Assembly: GCF_003987225.1 (NCBI RefSeq)
Contig: NZ_PIPX01000001.1
Location: 930,001-994,000, forward strand
Source of the DNA: Pseudidiomarina homiensis
Lineage (GTDB): Bacteria; Pseudomonadota; Gammaproteobacteria; Enterobacterales; Alteromonadaceae
Length of the DNA stretch: 64,000 nt
Reading direction: 5' to 3'
This document shows positions 23,983-33,543 of the stretch, in pieces; the stretch's first letter is position 1; each line of letters begins with the position of its first letter. Both the position numbers and the translations under genes were made by a program. The notes below the pieces were generated by a model, which was given only the letters and a program-made list of their open reading frames with translations, made no database searches and was not told the origin of the DNA.

Positions 23983-24031
23983 AATCTTGCGTCTTCCACT
24001 TTTCCTAATTTGCTTTGTCCTGATACAAACA

Positions 24032-24061
24032 CACGGAGGCCACCTGCTGGCAACCCCCGTG
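24032..24061 (-). promoter_or_regulatory. GC-rich hairpin between dnaK and dnaJ
   Basis: CACGG...CCGTG outer arms with further G:C pairing form a 30-base hairpin in the 112-base dnaK-dnaJ gap. There is no U-run after it, so it is not a standard terminator; it could lower dnaJ expression relative to dnaK or stabilise the dnaK mRNA end. Confidence 0.45.
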
Positions 24062-24094
24062 CGTTGTTATCACAGACACCCGGTGGGCGTATGC

Positions 24095-26017
24095 TTACTT
24101 TTTCTCGTCGTCTTTGACTTCCTCAAACTCAGCATCAACAACATCGTCGTCTTGCTTCGCTTGTTGCTCGCCAGCATCGGCATCAGCGCCAGCTTGCTGC
24201 GCTTTTTGCTGCGCTGCTTCCATGAGCTTGCTCGACGCCTCAATAAGCGCTTGCTGTTTGGCTTCGATTTGTTCTTTATCGTTCGCCTTCACAGCTGCTT
24301 CTAGCTCACCGATAGCCGCTTCGATTTTCTCTTTCTCTGCGCTATCTAAGCTGTCACCAACTTCTTCAAGTTGCTTACGAGTCGCATGCACTAAGCCGTC
24401 CGCTTGGTTGCGTACTTGCACCATCTCTTCGAACTTACGGTCTTCCTCAGCGTGTGCTTCGGCGTCACGTACCATTTTCTCGACATCTTCGTCGCTTAGA
24501 CCTGATGAAGCTTTAATGGTGATCTTTTGTTCTTTACCTGTGTCTTTATCTTTCGCAGACACATGCAAGATACCGTCAGCATCGAGGTCAAAGGTTACTT
24601 CGATTTGCGGTACACCACGTTGGGCTGGGCGAATACCTTCTAAGTTAAATTGACCTAATGATTTGTTGTCTGCCGCACGCTTGCGCTCACCTTGGATAAC
24701 ATGAACAGTTACCGCTGACTGATTGTCTTCAGCAGTTGAGAAGGTTTGCGACTGCTTCGTAGGAATCGTCGTATTCTTCTCGATCAGTTTGGTCATCACG
24801 CCGCCCATGGTCTCGATACCGAGCGACAATGGCGTTACGTCAAGCAACAAGACATCTTTCACGTCACCTTGCAACACACCAGCCTGCACCGCAGCACCCA
24901 CAGCTACTGCTTCGTCAGGGTTCACGTCACGGCGTGGCTCTTTACCGAAGAAATCGGTCACGGCCTGCTGTACTTTCGGCATCCGCGTTTGGCCACCGAC
25001 CATGATAATGTCTTGAATATCGCTGACCGAGAGGTCTGCATCTGCAAGTGCTTGTTTAACCGGTTCCAATGACTTACTGATCAAGTCTTCAACCAATGAC
25101 TCAAGCTTGGCGCGCGTTACTTTAATCGCCAAGTGCTTAGGACCGGTGTTGTCCGCAGTAATATACGGCAAGTTCACTTCGGTTTGCTGTGCAGATGACA
25201 ATTCGATCTTAGCTTTTTCGGCCGCTTCTTTTAGACGCTGCATTGCCAAAGGATCTTTGCGTAAATCGATACCTTGGTCTTTCTCAAACTGCTCAACCAA
25301 GTAATTGATTAAGCGGTTGTCAAAGTCTTCACCACCAAGGTGAGTGTCACCATTGGTAGCAAGTACTTCAAAGGTATGTTCGCCTTCAACTTCATCGATT
25401 TCGATGATTGAAATATCGAAAGTACCACCACCTAAGTCATACACAGCGATGGTGTTATCGCCTTTCTTCTTGTCCATACCGTAAGCAAGTGCAGCTGCGG
25501 TTGGCTCGTTGATAATACGCTTAACTTCCAAGCCAGCAATGCGGCCAGCGTCTTTGGTTGCTTGGCGTTGCGCATCGTTAAAGTAGGCAGGCACAGTAAT
25601 AACTGCTTCGGTCACTTTCTCACCAAGGAAGTCCTCCGCAGTTTTCTTCATCTTTTTCAAGATTTCAGCAGAAATTTGCGGTGGCGCTTTCTTATCGTCA
25701 TTGATCTGAACCCATGCATCACCATTGTCCGCTTCGACAATTTTGTAAGGCATAATGCCGATGTCGCGCTGCACTTCATCATCTTTAAAACGACGACCAA
25801 TCAAACGCTTAATTGCAAATAGGGTTTTATTTGGGTTGGTTACCGCCTGACGCTTGGCCGGCTGACCCACTAAAGTTTCACCGTCGTCTGTAAACGCTAC
25901 TACCGAAGGCGTTGTACGATCACCCTCAGCGTTTTCGATAACGCGTGCTTTGTCGCCATCAAGTACAGCAACACACGAATTCGTTGTACCTAAATCAATA
26001 CCAATAATTTTGCCCAT
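24095..26017 (-). CDS. dnaK: Chaperone protein DnaK (Hsp70)
   Basis: ATP-dependent folding chaperone. The 640-residue protein has the actin-like ATPase domain ([13 protein letters not shown], the [15 protein letters not shown] segment, GGTFDISI), the [10 protein letters not shown] linker and substrate domain, and the acidic EEVKDDEKK tail. The ATG at 26017 gives the family N-terminus [10 protein letters not shown] and follows GGAG; an upstream in-frame codon four residues earlier is ignored. A sigma-32 promoter lies upstream. Its usual partner grpE is 5.9 kb away, beyond an accessory insert. Confidence 0.99.
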
Positions 26018-26061
26018 GACTGTCTCCAAACTCCAACATTCAAAATACTTCGTTATTCCTG

Positions 26062-26090
26062 ATATGGGGCATCTCTAAATTTTTTCAATG
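26062..26090 (-). promoter_or_regulatory. Sigma-32 heat-shock promoter of dnaK
   Basis: Minus-strand CATTGAA (26084-26090), 14-base spacer, CCCCATAT (26062-26069): a near-consensus sigma-32 promoter 45 bases before the dnaK start. Confidence 0.8.
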
Positions 26091-26171
26091 CCCGCTCAGG
26101 TAATTTATCTTTGGTTGACAGTGTTATGGGGTTGCGAAAAAGGATTACAAGCCTTGTGGTTAATTTTTTTC

Positions 26172-27815
26172 TTAAACCCAGCCTTTTGGACGCGCAGCTG
26201 TTGGGTAGTCCTTCATGCCCAACGCTCGCTGGAGCCAGAGTTCATGTGGCGGTAGCATCTGTCGCGCCATTTGCAAACGTTGCAAAATTGCCGGATTGAC
26301 TTGGGTTGGTGGACGGCGCTCACCGAACCATTGATCACATTCCTCTTGCAAAAATTCCATGCCATACAAAATGCATTCGTAACTTTCGTGATTCCATAAG
26401 CCGCCCGTATCTACTGGAGAGCGTGCATCCATCAGACCAGAACCGAGCGGTGGCAGCGCACCATCGGCTTGCCCAACAAGCGCAGCGAAATTTTGGTCTT
26501 GAAAGTCATGAGCACTCGGTGGCTTATGCCGCCAAAACTCAAACTTAGCTTGCAAGCGATCAGTAATGTGCTCACGCTCTTGTACGGTACGCCAAAACTC
26601 GGTATCAGTGCGCTTCGTCAGGCAGTAATGCATGTTGATAAAATCGAGAATTTCATAATAACGGTTGGTCATCAGACGGTTATATCGTGCAGCAAGAATT
26701 TCTTGATCTTCTCGGCGCCAAGGAAAGTGCTCAGCGAGTAGCACCGCACCTAAATCACTCAAATAAAGTCCGGTCGATTCAAGTGGCTCAATAAAACCGC
26801 CAGATAAGCCAATAGCGACACAATTACCTTGCCACTGTTGATGACGTCGCCCTGCTTTAAAAGGTATAAAACGGCACGGTAAATCATCGGTATTGCCGCC
26901 CTGATAGGCGCGCATTTCACGCTCGGCTGCCTCTTCATCAATGAAGGCACTGGAATGCACATAACCAATCGAACGACGGGTTTGCATGGGGATATCCCAA
27001 ATCCAGCCGTTCGACAACGCTGTAGCGGTCGTATAAGGCCGCACCATGCCTGGATAATGCGTGTCATATGGCACGTGCATCGTCACCGCACGATCGCAAA
27101 GCAGGTACTTGCCAAAATCTTCGTAGCCAACGCCCATTTCTTTTTCCAACAGCAGCGAGCGGAAGCCGGTACAGTCGACAAAAATATCCGCCGTGATTTC
27201 TTGGCCTTTGTCGGTGGTAACACTCGCAATATCGCCATTGGCATGCTTCTTCACTTCCGCCATATTGGCCATGGTATGTACAACATTTCGAGCGGTGGAG
27301 AAGTCACGCAGATAATCGGCAAATTTTTGCGCATTCATCTGATACGCATAATTAAGCCGCGCCCCCATGCGCCATTCACCAAACATAACGGGGGCGCGCC
27401 CCCACTCACAAACTAAAGGCTGAATCGAGCAGGTTTCCATGAACGGCACACTGCGGTCAGAGCGAAGCCAATCACTACCGGCGTAATCAATAGGTTGAGC
27501 GCGTAGACTACTGAACGGATGGTGGTAAAAACTGTTGTCATTGTGAACCCAGTTCACATATTTGATCGATTGCTTAAACGTACCTTCGGTGACCCGCATG
27601 AATTCCATTTCGTCAATACCAATAGCGGCGAGTAAGTGTCGCATCGAGGGAATCGTTGCTTCACCGACCGAAATACGGGGTGTGTCAGGTGATTCGAGTA
27701 GCTCGATATCAACACGATGGTCATTACCCCGCCGATTTAACGCGCCATTGAGATAAGCAGCCGCCATCCAGCCAGCCGAGCCACCACCGACAATAAGAAT
27801 CTTCCGCTTTTCCAT
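26172..27815 (-). CDS. Flavin-dependent tryptophan-halogenase-family protein
   Basis: Predicted FADH2-dependent halogenase of 547 residues that would use halide and O2 to form hypohalous acid. It has the FAD loop GGGSAGW (10-16), the conserved lysine K81 in EGTFK and the halogenase signature WIWDIP (271-276), which separates halogenases from monooxygenases. The substrate is unknown; similar proteins (for example BrvH of Brevundimonas) occur beside TonB-dependent receptors and can act on free indole rather than tryptophan. It lies 26 bases after a sulfotransferase gene, apparently in one operon. No flavin reductase gene is nearby. Confidence 0.88.
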   Translation of the reverse strand: MEKRKILIVGGGSAGWMAAAYLNGALNRRGNDHRVDIELLESPDTPRISVGEATIPSMRHLLAAIGIDEMEFMRVTEGTFKQSIKYVNWVHNDNSFYHHPFSSLRAQPIDYAGSDWLRSDRSVPFMETCSIQPLVCEWGRAPVMFGEWRMGARLNYAYQMNAQKFADYLRDFSTARNVVHTMANMAEVKKHANGDIASVTTDKGQEITADIFVDCTGFRSLLLEKEMGVGYEDFGKYLLCDRAVTMHVPYDTHYPGMVRPYTTATALSNGWIWDIPMQTRRSIGYVHSSAFIDEEAAEREMRAYQGGNTDDLPCRFIPFKAGRRHQQWQGNCVAIGLSGGFIEPLESTGLYLSDLGAVLLAEHFPWRREDQEILAARYNRLMTNRYYEILDFINMHYCLTKRTDTEFWRTVQEREHITDRLQAKFEFWRHKPPSAHDFQDQNFAALVGQADGALPPLGSGLMDARSPVDTGGLWNHESYECILYGMEFLQEECDQWFGERRPPTQVNPAILQRLQMARQMLPPHELWLQRALGMKDYPTAARPKGWV

Positions 27816-27841
27816 AACCTACTCCGCTTAGTGCGTTGTAA

Positions 27842-28633
27842 TTATTCGTTGTAACCGAGTAACGTTCGGAGGCCCGGAGCTGCATAATCAACCAGTTTAC
27901 GTTGTTGCTCAGGTAGCTCATTCGGGATCGAAAATGCTGTATTGCTCAAGTTATCGCGGTAGGTCCCGCTTTGCTCGCGATCCGCACCCACGCGGATACG
28001 CTCGCGCCAGTCCGCTGGAAATTCGCGTAAGTTAAGCGGTGCCAACAATTCGCGGAAATACGACTCTGCTTCATCGCTGTCGAGATTGACGACGTTGTCG
28101 CGCAACTCCTCGTAGCGCACCAGTTTCACACCCGTGCCCAACCATGCTGCTGCGTTATTATCGAAAATATCAGCCAATGACGGCACTTTTTGGTGGATAC
28201 CAAAAATCATCATGTTGAGAATCTCTTCAAGATTAATTTGCCCAGCCTTGAGATGCTCTAAATTACCTTGAAAATTATCTGATAAGAAGAAACGTGCGCG
28301 CGCTAAAACCCAGTCGTAAGGGTCACGGACCACCACAATATGCTGCGCTTTGTGAAGCGCGATGCAGGCCTCGTCAGAAAAAAGCAAATGCCCCCAACTT
28401 AATTTGGGCTGCAACGGATTAAACGCTCCGACATGCTGCCGCAAAACCGGAATTTGAATGAAAGTATCGTGGTATTGCTGGTTTACGGGCACAAACATCC
28501 GAAAGATATTGCGAATTAAATGGGTGCCACATTTCGGCACTGAATTCAAAAAAACGGGAACGGTTAGAACTTGTTGGTCAAAGTCCTGATTACGTTCGTT
28601 AAGAGTATCAGGCTTGGTCACAATACGCGCCAT
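27842..28633 (-). CDS. PAPS-dependent sulfotransferase-like protein
   Basis: Probable sulfotransferase of 263 residues. It has the 5'-phosphosulfate-binding loop VPKCGTHL (from P33, compare PKSGTTW), a WGHL segment whose H82 may be the catalytic base, and a 3'-phosphate-binding motif VVVRDPYDWVLARARFF from V100, equivalent to the RNPxDxxxSxxxF pattern. No signal peptide. The ATG at 28633 fits the domain; the frame is open upstream across a terminator. The acceptor could be a glycan, peptide or small molecule. It is in an operon with the halogenase, separated from the TonB receptor by a terminator. Confidence 0.82.
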   Translation of the reverse strand: MARIVTKPDTLNERNQDFDQQVLTVPVFLNSVPKCGTHLIRNIFRMFVPVNQQYHDTFIQIPVLRQHVGAFNPLQPKLSWGHLLFSDEACIALHKAQHIVVVRDPYDWVLARARFFLSDNFQGNLEHLKAGQINLEEILNMMIFGIHQKVPSLADIFDNNAAAWLGTGVKLVRYEELRDNVVNLDSDEAESYFRELLAPLNLREFPADWRERIRVGADREQSGTYRDNLSNTAFSIPNELPEQQRKLVDYAAPGLRTLLGYNE

Positions 28634-28696
28634 TGTTTGCTCACTGTTGTTGTTATTCGTTCTATGAGTTTGCCATTTTCGCGGCCTATAAAAAAG

Positions 28697-28723
28697 AAAA
28701 TGCCGACAAAAAGTCGGCATTTT
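28697..28723 (-). terminator. Intrinsic terminator after the TonB receptor gene
   Basis: TGCCGAC-AAAAA-GTCGGCA hairpin flanked by A4 and T4, 28 bases past the receptor stop codon and 64 bases before the sulfotransferase start. Confidence 0.8.
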
Positions 28724-28751
28724 ATCTTAGTGCTTGTGTCTACACTGCTAA

Positions 28752-31721
28752 TTAAAAGTCATAAGCAATGTTGACGAAGGCACGGCGACCTAACCAGTCG
28801 TACTGACTGTAGAAGGCTGCGTTACCTACACGCGTCGCGTAGCTGCTCGAAGAAATCTGAGGAGCTTCTTTATCGAATGCATTCGCAACACCAACAGTGA
28901 TACTCAAGCCTTCGTCGATAAAGTCACGAGTTGCAGAGAACGCATGATAGATCACCGATGGAGTAGCAAGGTCGATACGAACCTCCTCACCCCAATAAGT
29001 AGCATCATCACGGTACTCGCCGTCACCATACCACTCGTGGTTCGATGCTTCACCGATGTAACGTGCGGTCCAGTTATAGGTCCAATCACCTTTCATCATC
29101 GCAAAGTTGAAGTTACCCACGTGCTCAGGGCGACCTAAGCGACCAGCGCGGTCTTGGCGCTCACTGGTTGGTAGTAATTTGCTTGAAGCTTCAATCTGAT
29201 ACGTGTGCTCATAACTCAATTCGAACTCAGCGAAATCAGTAGAGAACGGATAGCTCATTTGCAAATCGACACCAGTATTCACTTGGCTTGCGATGTTCAA
29301 GTAATTACCTTGAACTTCTTCAACGCGCAGGTCAGTTTCATTACGGAAGAACTGATCACATAGCGGCTCTGATTCGAAGTTCTGTGACGAATAACAACCA
29401 CCAACGATTTGGCCTGCGCCAAGCAGTGTTACTTCACCTTCGATTTCGATATCGAAGTAGTCGATACTCATCGCGAAATCAGTGAAGCTTGGTGTCCAGA
29501 CGAAACCAACAGTGTTCGCAGTAGAAGTTTCAGCTTTAAGCGTACCGAAACCACCACCAGTGACGACTGTGGCTGAAATTGCACCACCAGCGTAATCTTC
29601 CGGGATGCCGTCAGCAGCACAGTTTGCCGCAACATTATCGGAAATATTACCCTGTTCGAGATTCTCACCCCAACGAATACATGGATCAACACTACGCTGG
29701 CTTGCGAAGCTTGACTGGTCGTTTAGGAACAATTCGTAAAGCGCTGGTGACCGGAACGATGTACCACGTGAAGCACGAATACGGAAACCTTCAACCACTG
29801 ACCAGTTCAAGCCCGCTTTATAAGTAGTATCGCTACCATAGGTTGAAACGTCAGTGAAACGACCTGAAACCGAAACATCCAAGCTTTCCATTAATGGCAA
29901 GTCTCGAACAACTGGGATTTGCACTTCTGCAAAGGCTGCGCGCGTGAATGATTTACCACGTGTGATACCTGCAGATGACATACCCCAGCTGTTACCCTGA
30001 AGTGTCACTTCTCCTGGGGTATCATTGATCTTATCTTGCTGGAACGATAGACCCGCTGCCATGCCTACAAAGCCGGCTGGGAGTTCCATTAGATCACCAG
30101 TAATAATACCTTCCAACGTGCGTTGGTTATAAATGGTGTTACCGGTTTCAGAACCGAACAAGAATTCTTGCATTTCTGGGCTGATATTACCCGCCAAGAA
30201 TTGCGGATCGAGCCACGGTACATCTTTACAAGGAATACCACGTACCGACAGCTCCATACCTTCACATGAGCCGGTCAGGAAGTTCTGATCGAAAATCGCA
30301 TCTTGGTAGATGATTTTCTGCTGATAGTCACCATCACTGCGACTGTCTTGGTAGTTGATATCCCAGTACCAATCACCGATTGAGCCTTCGATACCGGCAA
30401 CAAAACGACGATAATCTACAGTAATTTCGCTGCCCGAGTGATCCGTGATCGGCGTTGGGCTTAACCACTGCGCACCTGTCCAGCCTTCGCTACGCGTATC
30501 ACCAGAGAAGAAGTTTTCGTTGTAGAGGTAGCTCCAGAACTGACGATAACCATTTGTGATGGTTTTACGACGGTTTAACAACACTTCGGTGTACAAAGTT
30601 GTGGTATCTGACGCCCAGTATTCACCTTCAACAAAAACAGTCGCAACTTCAGTTTCTGGTGAAAGCGTTTCTAAGTCTTGGAAAGGATGGTCGGCATTGG
30701 TTACACCGAACGATTCACGGTCATAAGCGACTGGGTACCAGCCTTCTGGGGTACGCATAGAGTTAGGACCGGTCGCGCGATCGTTAAACGAGTCGAGGTA
30801 CTGACCTAAGTCACCATCGTAATCATACTGCGCTTTTGCACCTGGAGGTACTTCGCCCGAGTAGTCATAGATCCAAACATGGCCCCAAAGTAAGTCATTA
30901 CAATGGTATTCGTTGGTACGTGGATCAACTACATCGACACGCTCACCTGAATCTGGGTCGAAGAAGTAAGGGGTACCACAAGCAAATACATCACGGTCAC
31001 CACGCGCAAGCTCTTGGGTGCGCTGGTAGTCACCGACTACGCGTAATGAGCCGCTGTCAAAGCTACGGCCCATGGTACCGCTTAAGCGGAACTGAGCACC
31101 GCCGTCGTCCATCGGCTGACTCATGTTCAGGTTGAGGCTACTTTCATCACCCGATTTAGTGATAATGTTTACAACACCAGCAACAGCGTCAGAACCGTAA
31201 AGTGAAGAAGCACCATCTTTCAGGATCTCAACACGCTCAACGGCAGACAAAGGCATGATGTTCAAGTCGAACGCAGAAACCTGACCACGAGTACCCGCAG
31301 GGCCGATACGGCGGCCATTCAACAATACCAACGTACGGTTCGCGCCTAAACCACGCAGCGAGAAGGTTTCAGTACCCGTACCACCTTCGGTGACAAAGGC
31401 AGTTGAAGTCGCCGCTGTGATTTGGTTTGAACCCGCAGCAACGGTAGAAGTACGCAATAAATCACCAAGCGTGACAAGACCTTGGTCAACGGCGTCGCTG
31501 GCATTAATGATTTCAACAGGAGCGGCCTGGTCGAGGCCATCAGTGCGGATGCGAGAACCCAAAACTTGGATTTTCTCTTGCGGTTCTTCAGTTACCGCAT
31601 TGTCATTATCTTCGTCTGAACCGGTATCTTGCGCTAAGGCTACAGGGCTTGTTGCGGCGAACACGCAACCCATAGCGATAGCCAAGCGACTCAGCTTCAA
31701 CTCTTCGAGGAATGTAGTCAT
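28752..31721 (-). CDS. Large TonB-dependent outer-membrane receptor
   Basis: Energised outer-membrane transporter of 989 residues. A signal peptide ends at about A30 (PVALA-QD), followed by an acidic stretch, a possible TonB-box-like region (EKIQVLGSR), a plug domain with LVLLNGRRIGP, VERVEILKDGASSLYGSDAVAGVVNIITK, and a beta-barrel ending in YDF with a C-terminal phenylalanine. The ATG at 31721 follows AAAGGA. This OMR type with the SSLYG segment often imports peptides or glycans. It heads the insert that also encodes a halogenase and a sulfotransferase, so it may import their substrate or be functionally linked. Confidence 0.93.
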   Translation of the reverse strand: MTTFLEELKLSRLAIAMGCVFAATSPVALAQDTGSDEDNDNAVTEEPQEKIQVLGSRIRTDGLDQAAPVEIINASDAVDQGLVTLGDLLRTSTVAAGSNQITAATSTAFVTEGGTGTETFSLRGLGANRTLVLLNGRRIGPAGTRGQVSAFDLNIMPLSAVERVEILKDGASSLYGSDAVAGVVNIITKSGDESSLNLNMSQPMDDGGAQFRLSGTMGRSFDSGSLRVVGDYQRTQELARGDRDVFACGTPYFFDPDSGERVDVVDPRTNEYHCNDLLWGHVWIYDYSGEVPPGAKAQYDYDGDLGQYLDSFNDRATGPNSMRTPEGWYPVAYDRESFGVTNADHPFQDLETLSPETEVATVFVEGEYWASDTTTLYTEVLLNRRKTITNGYRQFWSYLYNENFFSGDTRSEGWTGAQWLSPTPITDHSGSEITVDYRRFVAGIEGSIGDWYWDINYQDSRSDGDYQQKIIYQDAIFDQNFLTGSCEGMELSVRGIPCKDVPWLDPQFLAGNISPEMQEFLFGSETGNTIYNQRTLEGIITGDLMELPAGFVGMAAGLSFQQDKINDTPGEVTLQGNSWGMSSAGITRGKSFTRAAFAEVQIPVVRDLPLMESLDVSVSGRFTDVSTYGSDTTYKAGLNWSVVEGFRIRASRGTSFRSPALYELFLNDQSSFASQRSVDPCIRWGENLEQGNISDNVAANCAADGIPEDYAGGAISATVVTGGGFGTLKAETSTANTVGFVWTPSFTDFAMSIDYFDIEIEGEVTLLGAGQIVGGCYSSQNFESEPLCDQFFRNETDLRVEEVQGNYLNIASQVNTGVDLQMSYPFSTDFAEFELSYEHTYQIEASSKLLPTSERQDRAGRLGRPEHVGNFNFAMMKGDWTYNWTARYIGEASNHEWYGDGEYRDDATYWGEEVRIDLATPSVIYHAFSATRDFIDEGLSITVGVANAFDKEAPQISSSSYATRVGNAAFYSQYDWLGRRAFVNIAYDF

Positions 31722-31744
31722 AGGACATCCTTTATTGTTTTTAT

Positions 31745-31757
31745 GATGATTATCATC
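31745..31757 (-). promoter_or_regulatory. Perfect palindrome in the TonB receptor leader
   Basis: GATGATTATCATC is a perfect 13-base dyad 24 bases before the receptor start. It shares a partial pattern with Fur boxes (TGATAAT-N-ATTATCA) but is not a good match; an operator for another regulator is equally possible. Confidence 0.4.
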
Positions 31758-31802
31758 TAAGAGGAACTCGAAAGCGCAGGCTTTTCCTCCCCCTAACGCT
31801 TG

Positions 31803-31830
31803 ATAATAAACCATAAGAACAACATTACAA
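31803..31830 (-). promoter_or_regulatory. Promoter of the TonB receptor gene
   Basis: TTGTAA (31825-31830), 16-base spacer, TATTAT (31803-31808) on the minus strand, giving a leader of about 75 bases that includes the 31745 palindrome. Confidence 0.55.
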
Positions 31831-31885
31831 CCTAAAAATGTTGCTCAGGACGCCCCTAGACTGGCTTCTTTGTTTCAAACCTGTG

Positions 31886-32494
31886 TCAGTTTTTTACCAC
31901 CATTACCATCGCTGGACGTAATAAACGTCCGCTCAATGTGTAGCCTTTTTGCATCACCGCCAAAATAGTATTGTTCTCTTTGCCTTCAGCAGCTTGCATT
32001 GACATCGCTTGATGCAAATCTGGATTAAAAGTTTCTCCTTCTTCGCCAACCGCTTCAACACCAAATTTAGTTAGCGTGCTCAGCAGGCTCTTGTGCGTAA
32101 GCTCAATACCCTCCAGAAAGTTGGCATTAATGCTTTCTTCTTGGTCTGCGATCGCTAGCGCGCGTTCGAGATTGTCGACCGTAGTCAACAATTCATTGGC
32201 AAACTTCTCCAGAGCAAATTTATGCGCCTTCTCAACATCTTGCGCAGCGCGACGACGCACATTTTCCATTTCGGCGACAGCTCGTACGGCACGATCTTTC
32301 GATTCTTCCGCCCGCTGCTCCGCTTGACTGAGTGCAAGCTCCAGCTCAGCAATACGTTCGTCTGCTACGGTTGACAGTACTTGCTCTTCACCGCTGTCTT
32401 GCGTCTCGCTTTCTGTCTGCTCTACAGTTTCTGGCTCGTGCTCATCAACTGCAACTTTTTGTTCATTTTCCTTCGCAGAATCGTGTTGGGTCAT
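31886..32494 (-). CDS. grpE: Nucleotide exchange factor GrpE
   Basis: Releases ADP from DnaK and so resets its chaperone cycle. The 202-residue protein has an acidic N-terminal region, a long coiled-coil (about 45-105) and the conserved C-terminal beta domain with FNPDLHQAMS and GYTLSGRLLRPAMVMV. Divergent from nadK with its own sigma-32 promoter; separated from dnaK by the halogenase/TonB insert. Confidence 0.98.
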   Translation of the reverse strand: MTQHDSAKENEQKVAVDEHEPETVEQTESETQDSGEEQVLSTVADERIAELELALSQAEQRAEESKDRAVRAVAEMENVRRRAAQDVEKAHKFALEKFANELLTTVDNLERALAIADQEESINANFLEGIELTHKSLLSTLTKFGVEAVGEEGETFNPDLHQAMSMQAAEGKENNTILAVMQKGYTLSGRLLRPAMVMVVKN

Positions 32495-32538
32495 GTTTCG
32501 TTACTCTTTCAATGTGATATAACTAAGCTTGTGCTCTG

Positions 32539-32566
32539 TTATGGGGGCACGATTTTTTGATTCAAG
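32539..32566 (-). promoter_or_regulatory. Sigma-32 heat-shock promoter of grpE
   Basis: Perfect CTTGAA (32561-32566), 14-base spacer and CCCCATAA (32539-32546) on the minus strand, about 45 bases upstream of the grpE start and inside the grpE/nadK divergent region. Confidence 0.82.
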
Positions 32567-32596
32567 GTATTTTGCATAAAAATCGAGGGAAGTTTT

Positions 32597-33487
32597 ATGG
32601 CAAATCCACAGGCGCTAGCCTTTCAACGCATTGCTCTACTCGGTAAGGTCAATCATGAAGCGACCCGCGCCACGCTCCTTACCTTAGAGCAAGAGTTGGG
32701 ATCCCTTGGTTTGGATGTCATCATTGAAGAGCGCACTGCGCAACAGCTCGATCGGCGTGAACGAGCGACCCTTCCCCTCGAGCAACTGGGTGAAGCCGCA
32801 GACTTAGCAGTGGTCGTGGGAGGTGACGGCAACATGCTCGGCGCGGCACGCATTCTTTGCGAGCATAACGTCGCCGTGGTCGGCGTTAACCGCGGCAACC
32901 TCGGTTTTCTTACCGATCTTGACCCCGACCATGTCATGCAGCAACTTCGTGCGGTATTAGCGGGTGACTTTATCACTGAAGAACGCTTCCTATTACAAGC
33001 CGAAGTCATCCGTAATGGTCATCGCCATAATGTTGGTCGTGCGATCAACGAGGTCGTGCTGCATTCTGACAAAGTCGCCCACATGATCGAGTTTGAAGTT
33101 TATGTCGACAGTGACTTCGTTTATAGCCAGCGTTCTGATGGATTAATCGTAAGCACGCCTACCGGCTCCACTGCGTATTCGTTATCCGGTGGCGGACCAA
33201 TTTTAACCCCGGGATTAGACGCGATTAGTTTAGTTCCTATGTTCCCACATACCTTAAGTAGTCGCCCCATCGTGGTCGGTGCGAACTGTACCTTACACCT
33301 CAAACCTTCACCGGATAATGGTAATTTGCAGTTAAGTTGTGACGGCCATATGCGCATGGAAGTACTCCCCAACGACGAAGTGTTGATCCACAAATACGCC
33401 TATACTTTGACGCTATTACACCCTAAAGATCACAGCTACTTCAAAGTGTTACGAAATAAACTCGGTTGGGGTAGCCGACTCTTTTAA
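32597..33487 (+). CDS. nadK: NAD kinase
   Basis: Phosphorylates NAD to NADP. The 296-residue protein has the GGDGNMLG catalytic motif, the [11 protein letters not shown] segment and the NAD-binding [13 protein letters not shown] loop. A GAGGGAAG site precedes the ATG. Divergent from grpE and 88 bases upstream of recN, as in many gammaproteobacteria. Confidence 0.98.
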
Positions 33488-33495
33488 GCTCTGAC

Positions 33496-33543
33496 TTGCA
33501 TTACTGTATAAATACTGTATAACTACTGTATGTAAACACAGTA
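33496..33543 (+). promoter_or_regulatory. recN promoter with LexA box
   Basis: TTGCAT (33496-33501) and TATAAC (33518-33523) with a 16-base spacer form the promoter. A perfect CTGT-N8-ACAG LexA box lies at 33526-33541, extended to a TA...TA-flanked 20-base palindrome. TACTGTAT half-sites repeat every 11 bases at 33502, 33513 and 33524, so the box overlaps and follows the promoter. Confidence 0.8.

Follow-up and report, generated by a model that had tools for sequence, protein, structure and literature searches.

Between grpE and dnaK in a 64,000-nucleotide stretch of the Pseudidiomarina homiensis genome (contig NZ_PIPX01000001.1, positions 930,001 to 994,000; hereafter the window), the minus strand carries the genes of a TonB-dependent receptor, a sulfotransferase-fold protein and a flavin-dependent halogenase, all three placed as the original prediction had claimed. 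Comparison of gene sequences across genomes indicates that they form a cassette in which a TonB-dependent receptor is joined by one or more partner enzymes, namely the sulfotransferase-fold protein, which belongs to an unnamed family, and usually the halogenase. Because this set is real and recurrent, its members very probably work together in a single process, as a functional cassette. Our preferred mechanism, held tentatively, is that aromatic side chains on the receptor are altered by the two enzymes, both cytosolic, ahead of export. To our knowledge, why flavin halogenases accompany TonB-dependent receptors is an open question. We found no description of the receptor-sulfotransferase-halogenase set in the PubMed Central (PMC) literature, subscription papers and preprints lying outside the scope of that search, which agrees with the earlier view of the island as an undescribed system; term searches within PMC1790865, PMC5507952, PMC3400609 and PMC5343134 returned no mention of halogenase, sulfotransferase or SapC, and the one paper to name a halogenase, TonB and a sulfotransferase together was an Acetobacteraceae genome survey.

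Scanning named genomes brought up 196 relatives of the sulfotransferase, of which the best 80, with their loci, underlie the counts that follow. A receptor match lies directly upstream of the sulfotransferase, on the same strand and at no more than 205 bp, in 70 of the 80 loci and in two bacterial classes, an arrangement far beyond chance; six further loci hold an in-clade receptor in the stretch in some other arrangement. A halogenase is found within 5 kb of the sulfotransferase in 57 of the 80, and in 36 it follows downstream on the same strand within 400 bp. The three-gene set, on whose occurrence in other genomes the original prediction had staked its proposal, is thus found well beyond the window. 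Carriers of the sulfotransferase among the 80 include Pseudidiomarina, Idiomarina, Aliidiomarina, Kangiella, Pleionea, Rheinheimera, Arsukibacterium, Alishewanella, Alteromonas, Marinicella and Woeseiaceae, among others, with Hyphomonas, Henriciella and Maricaulis among the alphaproteobacteria. The sulfotransferase family is nonetheless rare: matches were seen in 9 of 247 genomes sampled from the order (one of them weak, at 28% identity), in 1 of 369 from the class, this being the window's own genome, and in 6 of 398 from the phylum, own genome included.

Within the genus the genes come and go together. Among 26 Pseudidiomarina genomes, 11 have the receptor next after grpE, and in the other 15 it is dnaK that comes next, 88-265 bp away; those 11 genomes are also the ones that carry the sulfotransferase, with a halogenase beside it in 10, while in the remaining one (G001) the contig ends inside the sulfotransferase and the receptor is split over two frames. 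The halogenase is the less constant member across the wider set, 20 of the 80 loci showing no such gene over a distance of 10 kb or as far as the contig extends. A genome-wide check of 16 of these (L059, L085, L100 and L106 lay outside it) left 13 without a halogenase at E 1e-100; the genomes of L065 and L042 encode a close halogenase homologue elsewhere, and that of L064 only a 41% one. The receptor-sulfotransferase pair therefore occurs without a halogenase, indicating that the halogenation and sulfation steps are separable. In five loci (L037, L074, L076, L099 and L105), runs of at least three halogenase genes stand divergent to the pair, which suggests several halogenation sites or substrates.

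The receptor contains Pfam Plug and TonB_dep_Rec_b-barrel domains; its 989-residue form starts at 31721, the longest open reading frame (ORF) at 31814. Its structural model (mean predicted local distance difference test score, pLDDT, 84.1) has 22 barrel strands by manual count on the DSSP assignment and matches the solved structures of BtuB, Cir, FecA and PfeA. It shares plug and 22-stranded barrel with these receptors but differs from them in its 989 residues, its long extracellular loops and a WGHVWxYDY stretch. This stretch lies in loop L2 (residues 236-355), which, like loop L3 (residues 395-424), is extracellular by the same strand count, and it is a gap in about 70% of other aligned receptors. 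The linked receptors, of which 67 of 70 gave usable full ORFs, form one clade of 77 members: the 67 directly linked ones, eight from the same loci otherwise arranged, the window receptor a second time and a paralogue from its own genome. That paralogue (C1:1136198-1141218; L186:6699-11719) has no sulfotransferase or halogenase nearby, lacks the residue Tyr285 discussed below, and is followed by what inspection suggests is an S9-type-peptidase-like protein.

Intergenic gaps measure 118 bp between receptor and sulfotransferase and 26 bp between sulfotransferase and halogenase. The original claim that the set is co-operonic is only partly right: a terminator-like hairpin occupies the receptor-sulfotransferase junction in 68 of 70 loci, against 18% of dinucleotide shuffles, so that receptor and enzymes do not make up a simple operon. 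No such hairpin occurs in 36 sulfotransferase-halogenase junctions, though the majority of these are shorter than a hairpin of this kind needs. It is equally common after the receptor where this sulfotransferase is missing (29 of 32 junctions), and is thus shared generally by the receptor-enzyme junctions of the group, suggesting low-level read-through into the enzyme genes. An iron link, also raised by the original prediction, did not hold up, and a conserved Fur box was rejected as a general feature: scores upstream of 76 receptors near the sulfotransferase resemble those of 657 control genes, with 2 and 11, respectively, reaching at least 14 of 19 consensus positions. A Fur-like core matching 13 of 19 positions does lie upstream of the window receptor's start (about 31743-31760), with a similar site in its closest relative, L029.

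The assignment of the second gene as a sulfotransferase rests on predicted fold together with invariant residues. The listed ORF is 292 residues long; the corresponding first 29 residues are interrupted by stop codons in several relatives, and the conserved start at 28633 gives 263 residues. An AlphaFold model (pLDDT 89.7) matches the cytosolic sulfotransferases (SULTs) at a Foldseek E value of 2.9e-5, and its top Z scores are tied, at 13.1 for Teg12 (root-mean-square deviation 3.7 over 198 residues) and 13.0 for SULT7A1, the glycopeptide enzymes Teg12, Teg14 and StaL ranging from 12.6 to 13.1 and tying with animal SULTs. Lys34, His82 and Arg103 are invariant across 62 sequences of the family; by SULT spacing, not structural residue alignment, we take these to be the lysine that binds 3'-phosphoadenosine-5'-phosphosulfate (PAPS), the catalytic histidine and the 3'-phosphate arginine, and the usual SULT serine is presumably Ala111 here. 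The protein therefore resembles the PAPS sulfotransferases, Teg12, Teg14 and StaL included, in predicted fold and in the placing of these three residues, and to that extent the original description as a PAPS sulfotransferase stands. It departs from them in having an in-clade TonB receptor nearby in 76 of 80 loci and in scoring only 13.1 bits against Pfam Sulfotransfer_1 (PF00685), below the gathering cut-off of 22; no NCBIfam model matched it, and a PDB sequence search, even with a 62-sequence profile, found no sulfotransferase. Sulfotransfer_1 is matched at E ≤0.1 by 40 of the 62 relatives, the best at 1.9e-5. Pseudidiomarina sp. CB1 encodes a sulfotransferase with 100% identity to the window protein.

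The third gene encodes a predicted flavin-dependent halogenase. It scores 439 bits against Pfam Trp_halogenase (PF04820; curated cut-off 21), and alignment with PyrH and other solved tryptophan halogenases bears out the WIWDIP motif (WxWxIP) and catalytic lysine (Lys81) originally noted, alongside a GxGxxG FAD motif and Glu343; the catalytic roles of Lys81 and Glu343 we assume from the known enzymes. Among 70 clade halogenases, K81 is kept in 68, E343 in 70, the first tryptophan of the motif in 70, the second in 68, and its isoleucine and proline in all 70. On the tree, 70 of 77 halogenases from sulfotransferase loci form a clade free of any halogenase sampled elsewhere (support 0.76). The window enzyme thus shares fold family, FAD motif, WxWxIP and catalytic Lys and Glu with PrnA, RebH and PyrH; unlike them, it is linked to a receptor rather than to an antibiotic cluster, and its three alignments with solved enzymes stop near residues 426-439, before the region that we take to bind free tryptophan in PrnA and PyrH. 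Because the alignments end there, free tryptophan is a doubtful substrate.

These features can be assembled into the preferred mechanism. The receptor would be made in the cytosol as an unfolded chain, open to modification before export, while read-through past the hairpin would yield the enzymes at a lower, catalytic level; the high receptor-to-enzyme ratio that the hairpin would give fits receptor modification and is counted in its favor. PAPS and FADH2 are cytosolic, bacterial tyrosine sulfotransferases exist, and some flavin halogenases act on peptide-bound tryptophan. The sulfotransferase would use PAPS to sulfate a receptor tyrosine, with Tyr285 in the WGHVWxYDY loop as the likeliest target, and the halogenase, where present, would use FADH2, halide and O2 to halogenate an aromatic side chain, perhaps that of Trp419 one loop further on. 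The modified extracellular loops might then change how ligand is bound, or mask the receptor from phages and bacteriocins that use it.

Tyr285 and Trp419 are candidates, not findings. Among linked receptors, 66 of 67 have a tyrosine at position 285, as do all 12 taken from further genomes (78 of 79, three of the 12 being identical to earlier sequences); five of the latter are less than 50% identical to any earlier receptor, with loops divergent around Tyr285, and in one further genome (G047) the receptor and sulfotransferase genes converge. At the sole exception, L103, a tandem receptor keeps the motif. By contrast, Tyr285 is present in 0 of 16 in-clade Pseudidiomarina paralogues unlinked to the sulfotransferase, and among 219 conserved columns it is the only tyrosine of the eight lost in both paralogue subgroups. 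Trp419 is kept in 52 of 54 halogenase-positive receptors versus 7 of 20 halogenase-negative ones, ranking first of 275 columns for halogenase association by Fisher test. In this comparison, halogenase-positive meant any halogenase match in the stretch for the first set and E ≤1e-120 anywhere in the genome for further genomes; L059 and L106, whose contigs end nearby, were left out, L065, with its halogenase elsewhere, was counted positive, and, of the 12 validation receptors, the three identical to earlier ones entered the Tyr285 count only. Halogenase presence changes eight times on the tree by parsimony, and in alphaproteobacteria (class labels taken from titles and kinship) Trp419 accompanies 8 of 8 halogenase-positive and 0 of 11 halogenase-negative receptors.

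Features of the cassette and its flanks (window coordinates).
Feature	Position	Strand	Basis
TonB-dependent receptor gene, 989 aa	28752..31721	-	Pfam Plug and TonB_dep_Rec_b-barrel; model with 22-stranded barrel
Sulfotransferase-fold gene, 263 aa from conserved ATG	27842..28633	-	predicted fold, invariant K34/H82/R103
Flavin-dependent halogenase gene, 547 aa	26172..27815	-	Pfam Trp_halogenase 439 bits; K81, E343
Extracellular loop L2, residues 236-355, with WGHVWxYDY motif	30657..31016	-	strand count on model
Tyr285 codon, candidate sulfation site	30867..30869	-	Tyr conservation in linked receptors
Trp419 codon in L3, weak candidate halogenation site	30465..30467	-	halogenase association
Intrinsic-terminator-like hairpin between receptor and sulfotransferase	28697..28723	-	sequence
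grpE, upstream flank	31886..32494	-	ORF; adjacency compared in 26 genomes
Sigma-32-like heat-shock promoter before grpE	32541..32565	-	pattern match
dnaK, downstream flank	24095..26017	-	start at ATG of MGKIIGID; listed ORF begins with TTG at 26029
Sigma-32-like heat-shock promoter before dnaK, downstream of cassette	26064..26088	-	pattern match

Inspection of what else surrounds the pair adds further enzymes in some loci. An Asp/Asn hydroxylase family is found near the cassette in 10 loci and a Sulfotransfer_3 family in 7, each named from two representatives. At L050:1575-3277 and L078:104-1741 a second sulfotransferase, of the Sulfotransfer_3 type, sits beside an Asp/Asn hydroxylase, and at L088:5201-7321 a protein with tetratricopeptide repeats and an Asp/Asn hydroxylase domain has an ORF that overlaps the end of the sulfotransferase gene. 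A family with an S9 prolyl oligopeptidase-type representative occurs no more than 6 kb away in 20 loci, out of the 70 that fall outside the grpE-dnaK group. Among neighbor families of at least 150 aa, not all of which were annotated, wide recurrence was confined to these S9-type peptidases, the hydroxylases and gene order conserved within related genera.

Halogenases also accompany receptors away from the cassette. Forty stretches from 13 related genomes contain 56 long halogenase ORFs and nothing that matches this sulfotransferase. The closest receptor lies one gene away for 26 of these ORFs, two for 11, three for 8 and four for 4, while 7 have none in the stretch. Neighbors were annotated in three of these stretches: L172 carries a GH20 hexosaminidase together with SIS and amidohydrolase proteins and SapC; in L161 the neighbors include an alpha-amylase and a cyclomaltodextrinase, and in L154 a GH94 phosphorylase, SapC and Cupin_8. 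The presumed ligands of such chitin-sugar and maltodextrin loci lack aromatic rings, so that the receptor protein, rather than its ligand, may be the common substrate of the wider halogenase family. Receptor, SapC, Cupin_8 (a JmjC-like cupin) and halogenase occur together in the glycan loci L154 and L172, and gene sizes suggest the same for L158 and L160. These neighborhoods resemble the cassette in having a halogenase near a receptor and a hairpin after the receptor gene, but differ in having no copy of this sulfotransferase and halogenases from outside the cassette clade. The window's own genome holds, at C1:1602721-1607282 (L027:6722-11283), a second full-length halogenase beside a second large receptor, near amidase/beta-lactamase-like and glycoside hydrolase family 3-like proteins judged by inspection, perhaps a muropeptide uptake locus. 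A self-modifying receptor might thus be one branch of a wider class in which halogenases, SapC, Cupin_8, Asp/Asn hydroxylases and sulfotransferases tailor TonB-dependent receptors, an extension we regard as possible but rather doubtful.

Several lines of evidence speak for modification of the receptor: its place upstream in 70 of 80 loci, its single clade, the constancy of Tyr285, the first rank of Trp419 by Fisher test, the hydroxylases and second sulfotransferase of some loci, and an adenosine 5'-phosphosulfate (APS) kinase encoded in the genome that could supply PAPS. Other observations weigh against it, and it stands as an unproven proposal drawn from sequence and predicted structure. Four loci (L042, L088, L091 and L101) have no in-clade receptor in the DNA examined, and the proteins closest in fold to the sulfotransferase act on small molecules or glycopeptides. 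The Tyr285 contrast was sought after the loops had been inspected; the 16 unlinked paralogues nest inside the linked clade as one group, so that the loss of Tyr285 was probably a single evolutionary event, and only 10 of them are in genomes without the sulfotransferase, 6 being in genomes that carry it elsewhere. As for Trp419, its likelihood ratio on the tree (14.1 with 4 parameters, the highest in a fit to the 48 best columns by Fisher test) is tied with those of R227 (14.0) and I715 (13.5) and falls short of significance across 275 columns; without the further genomes it had stood second, behind I715; halogenase-negative gammaproteobacterial receptors keep it in 7 of 9 cases; and the halogenase-positive L099 and L105 lack it. 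Both residues may simply bind ligand, the paralogues having changed theirs.

Almost as likely as receptor modification is that the receptor takes up a tailored small molecule or peptide, the enzymes halogenating and sulfating an aromatic compound that the cell itself makes, exports and retrieves, for example as a metal carrier or signal. Teg12, Teg14 and StaL, among the closest folds though tied with animal SULTs, add sulfate to phenol groups on glycopeptide antibiotics, which carry chlorine as well, and the receptor's fold resembles those of siderophore, cobalamin and colicin receptors. A single ligand class read from the fold matches was rejected, the top rows being tied for both the sulfotransferase and receptor models. 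Against such a product stand the want of any widely recurring family of at least 150 aa near the pair besides the S9-type peptidases and hydroxylases (short ORFs being uncompared), the unconserved Fur-type box and the sulfotransferase's presence in genomes without a halogenase. It is less likely, indeed improbable, that the enzymes detoxify, trap or route a compound imported through the receptor, such as peptide-derived aromatics: the S9-type peptidases near the pair, and after the own-genome paralogue, suggest a peptide ligand, but receptors deliver to the periplasm, the enzymes need cytosolic cofactors and have no export signal by inspection (no predictor was used), and related halogenases serve receptors for presumed non-aromatic ligands.

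Modification of another protein or a surface polymer, with the receptor merely sharing regulation, is more improbable again; some related loci do include Asp/Asn hydroxylases, SapC or Cupin_8 proteins, yet the receptor is the constant partner, and no second candidate substrate gene was seen to recur among the neighbor families, not all of which were annotated. That the genes are chance neighbors or hitch-hikers with separate functions is very unlikely. The incidental look of the grpE-dnaK location and the cassette's varied surroundings elsewhere would suit it, but not the repeated receptor-sulfotransferase order across two classes, nor the joint presence or absence of both genes at that site in the 26 genomes.

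The splitting of grpE from dnaK by the cassette does look incidental, because dnaK has its own promoter and because the cassette lies in other gene surroundings in other lineages, Idiomarina aquatica (L043) sharing the grpE-dnaK site. The pattern TTGAA-N11..17-CCCCAT, built on what we take to be the sigma-32 consensus, has two matches in the 64 kb, before grpE and before dnaK, against 0.15 expected; with a sigma-32-like promoter of its own, dnaK need not depend on the cassette. Repeats in 24000-33500 are mostly short or less than 90% alike, with no recognizable matched pair flanking the island, and no Rfam family reaches its gathering score in 25900-32700. As to mobile carriage, no relative was found in 72,556 plasmid records, and IMG/VR holds one candidate stretch, unconfirmed.

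The cassette makes the question of halogenases and receptors testable, being small, present or absent among species of one genus, found in cultured species and reduced to two named residues. Should the receptor be the substrate, halogenation together with tyrosine sulfation would constitute a new layer of control over outer-membrane receptors. Should it not be, the cassette would still mark an unnamed sulfotransferase family and a halogenated or sulfated compound in aquatic bacteria.

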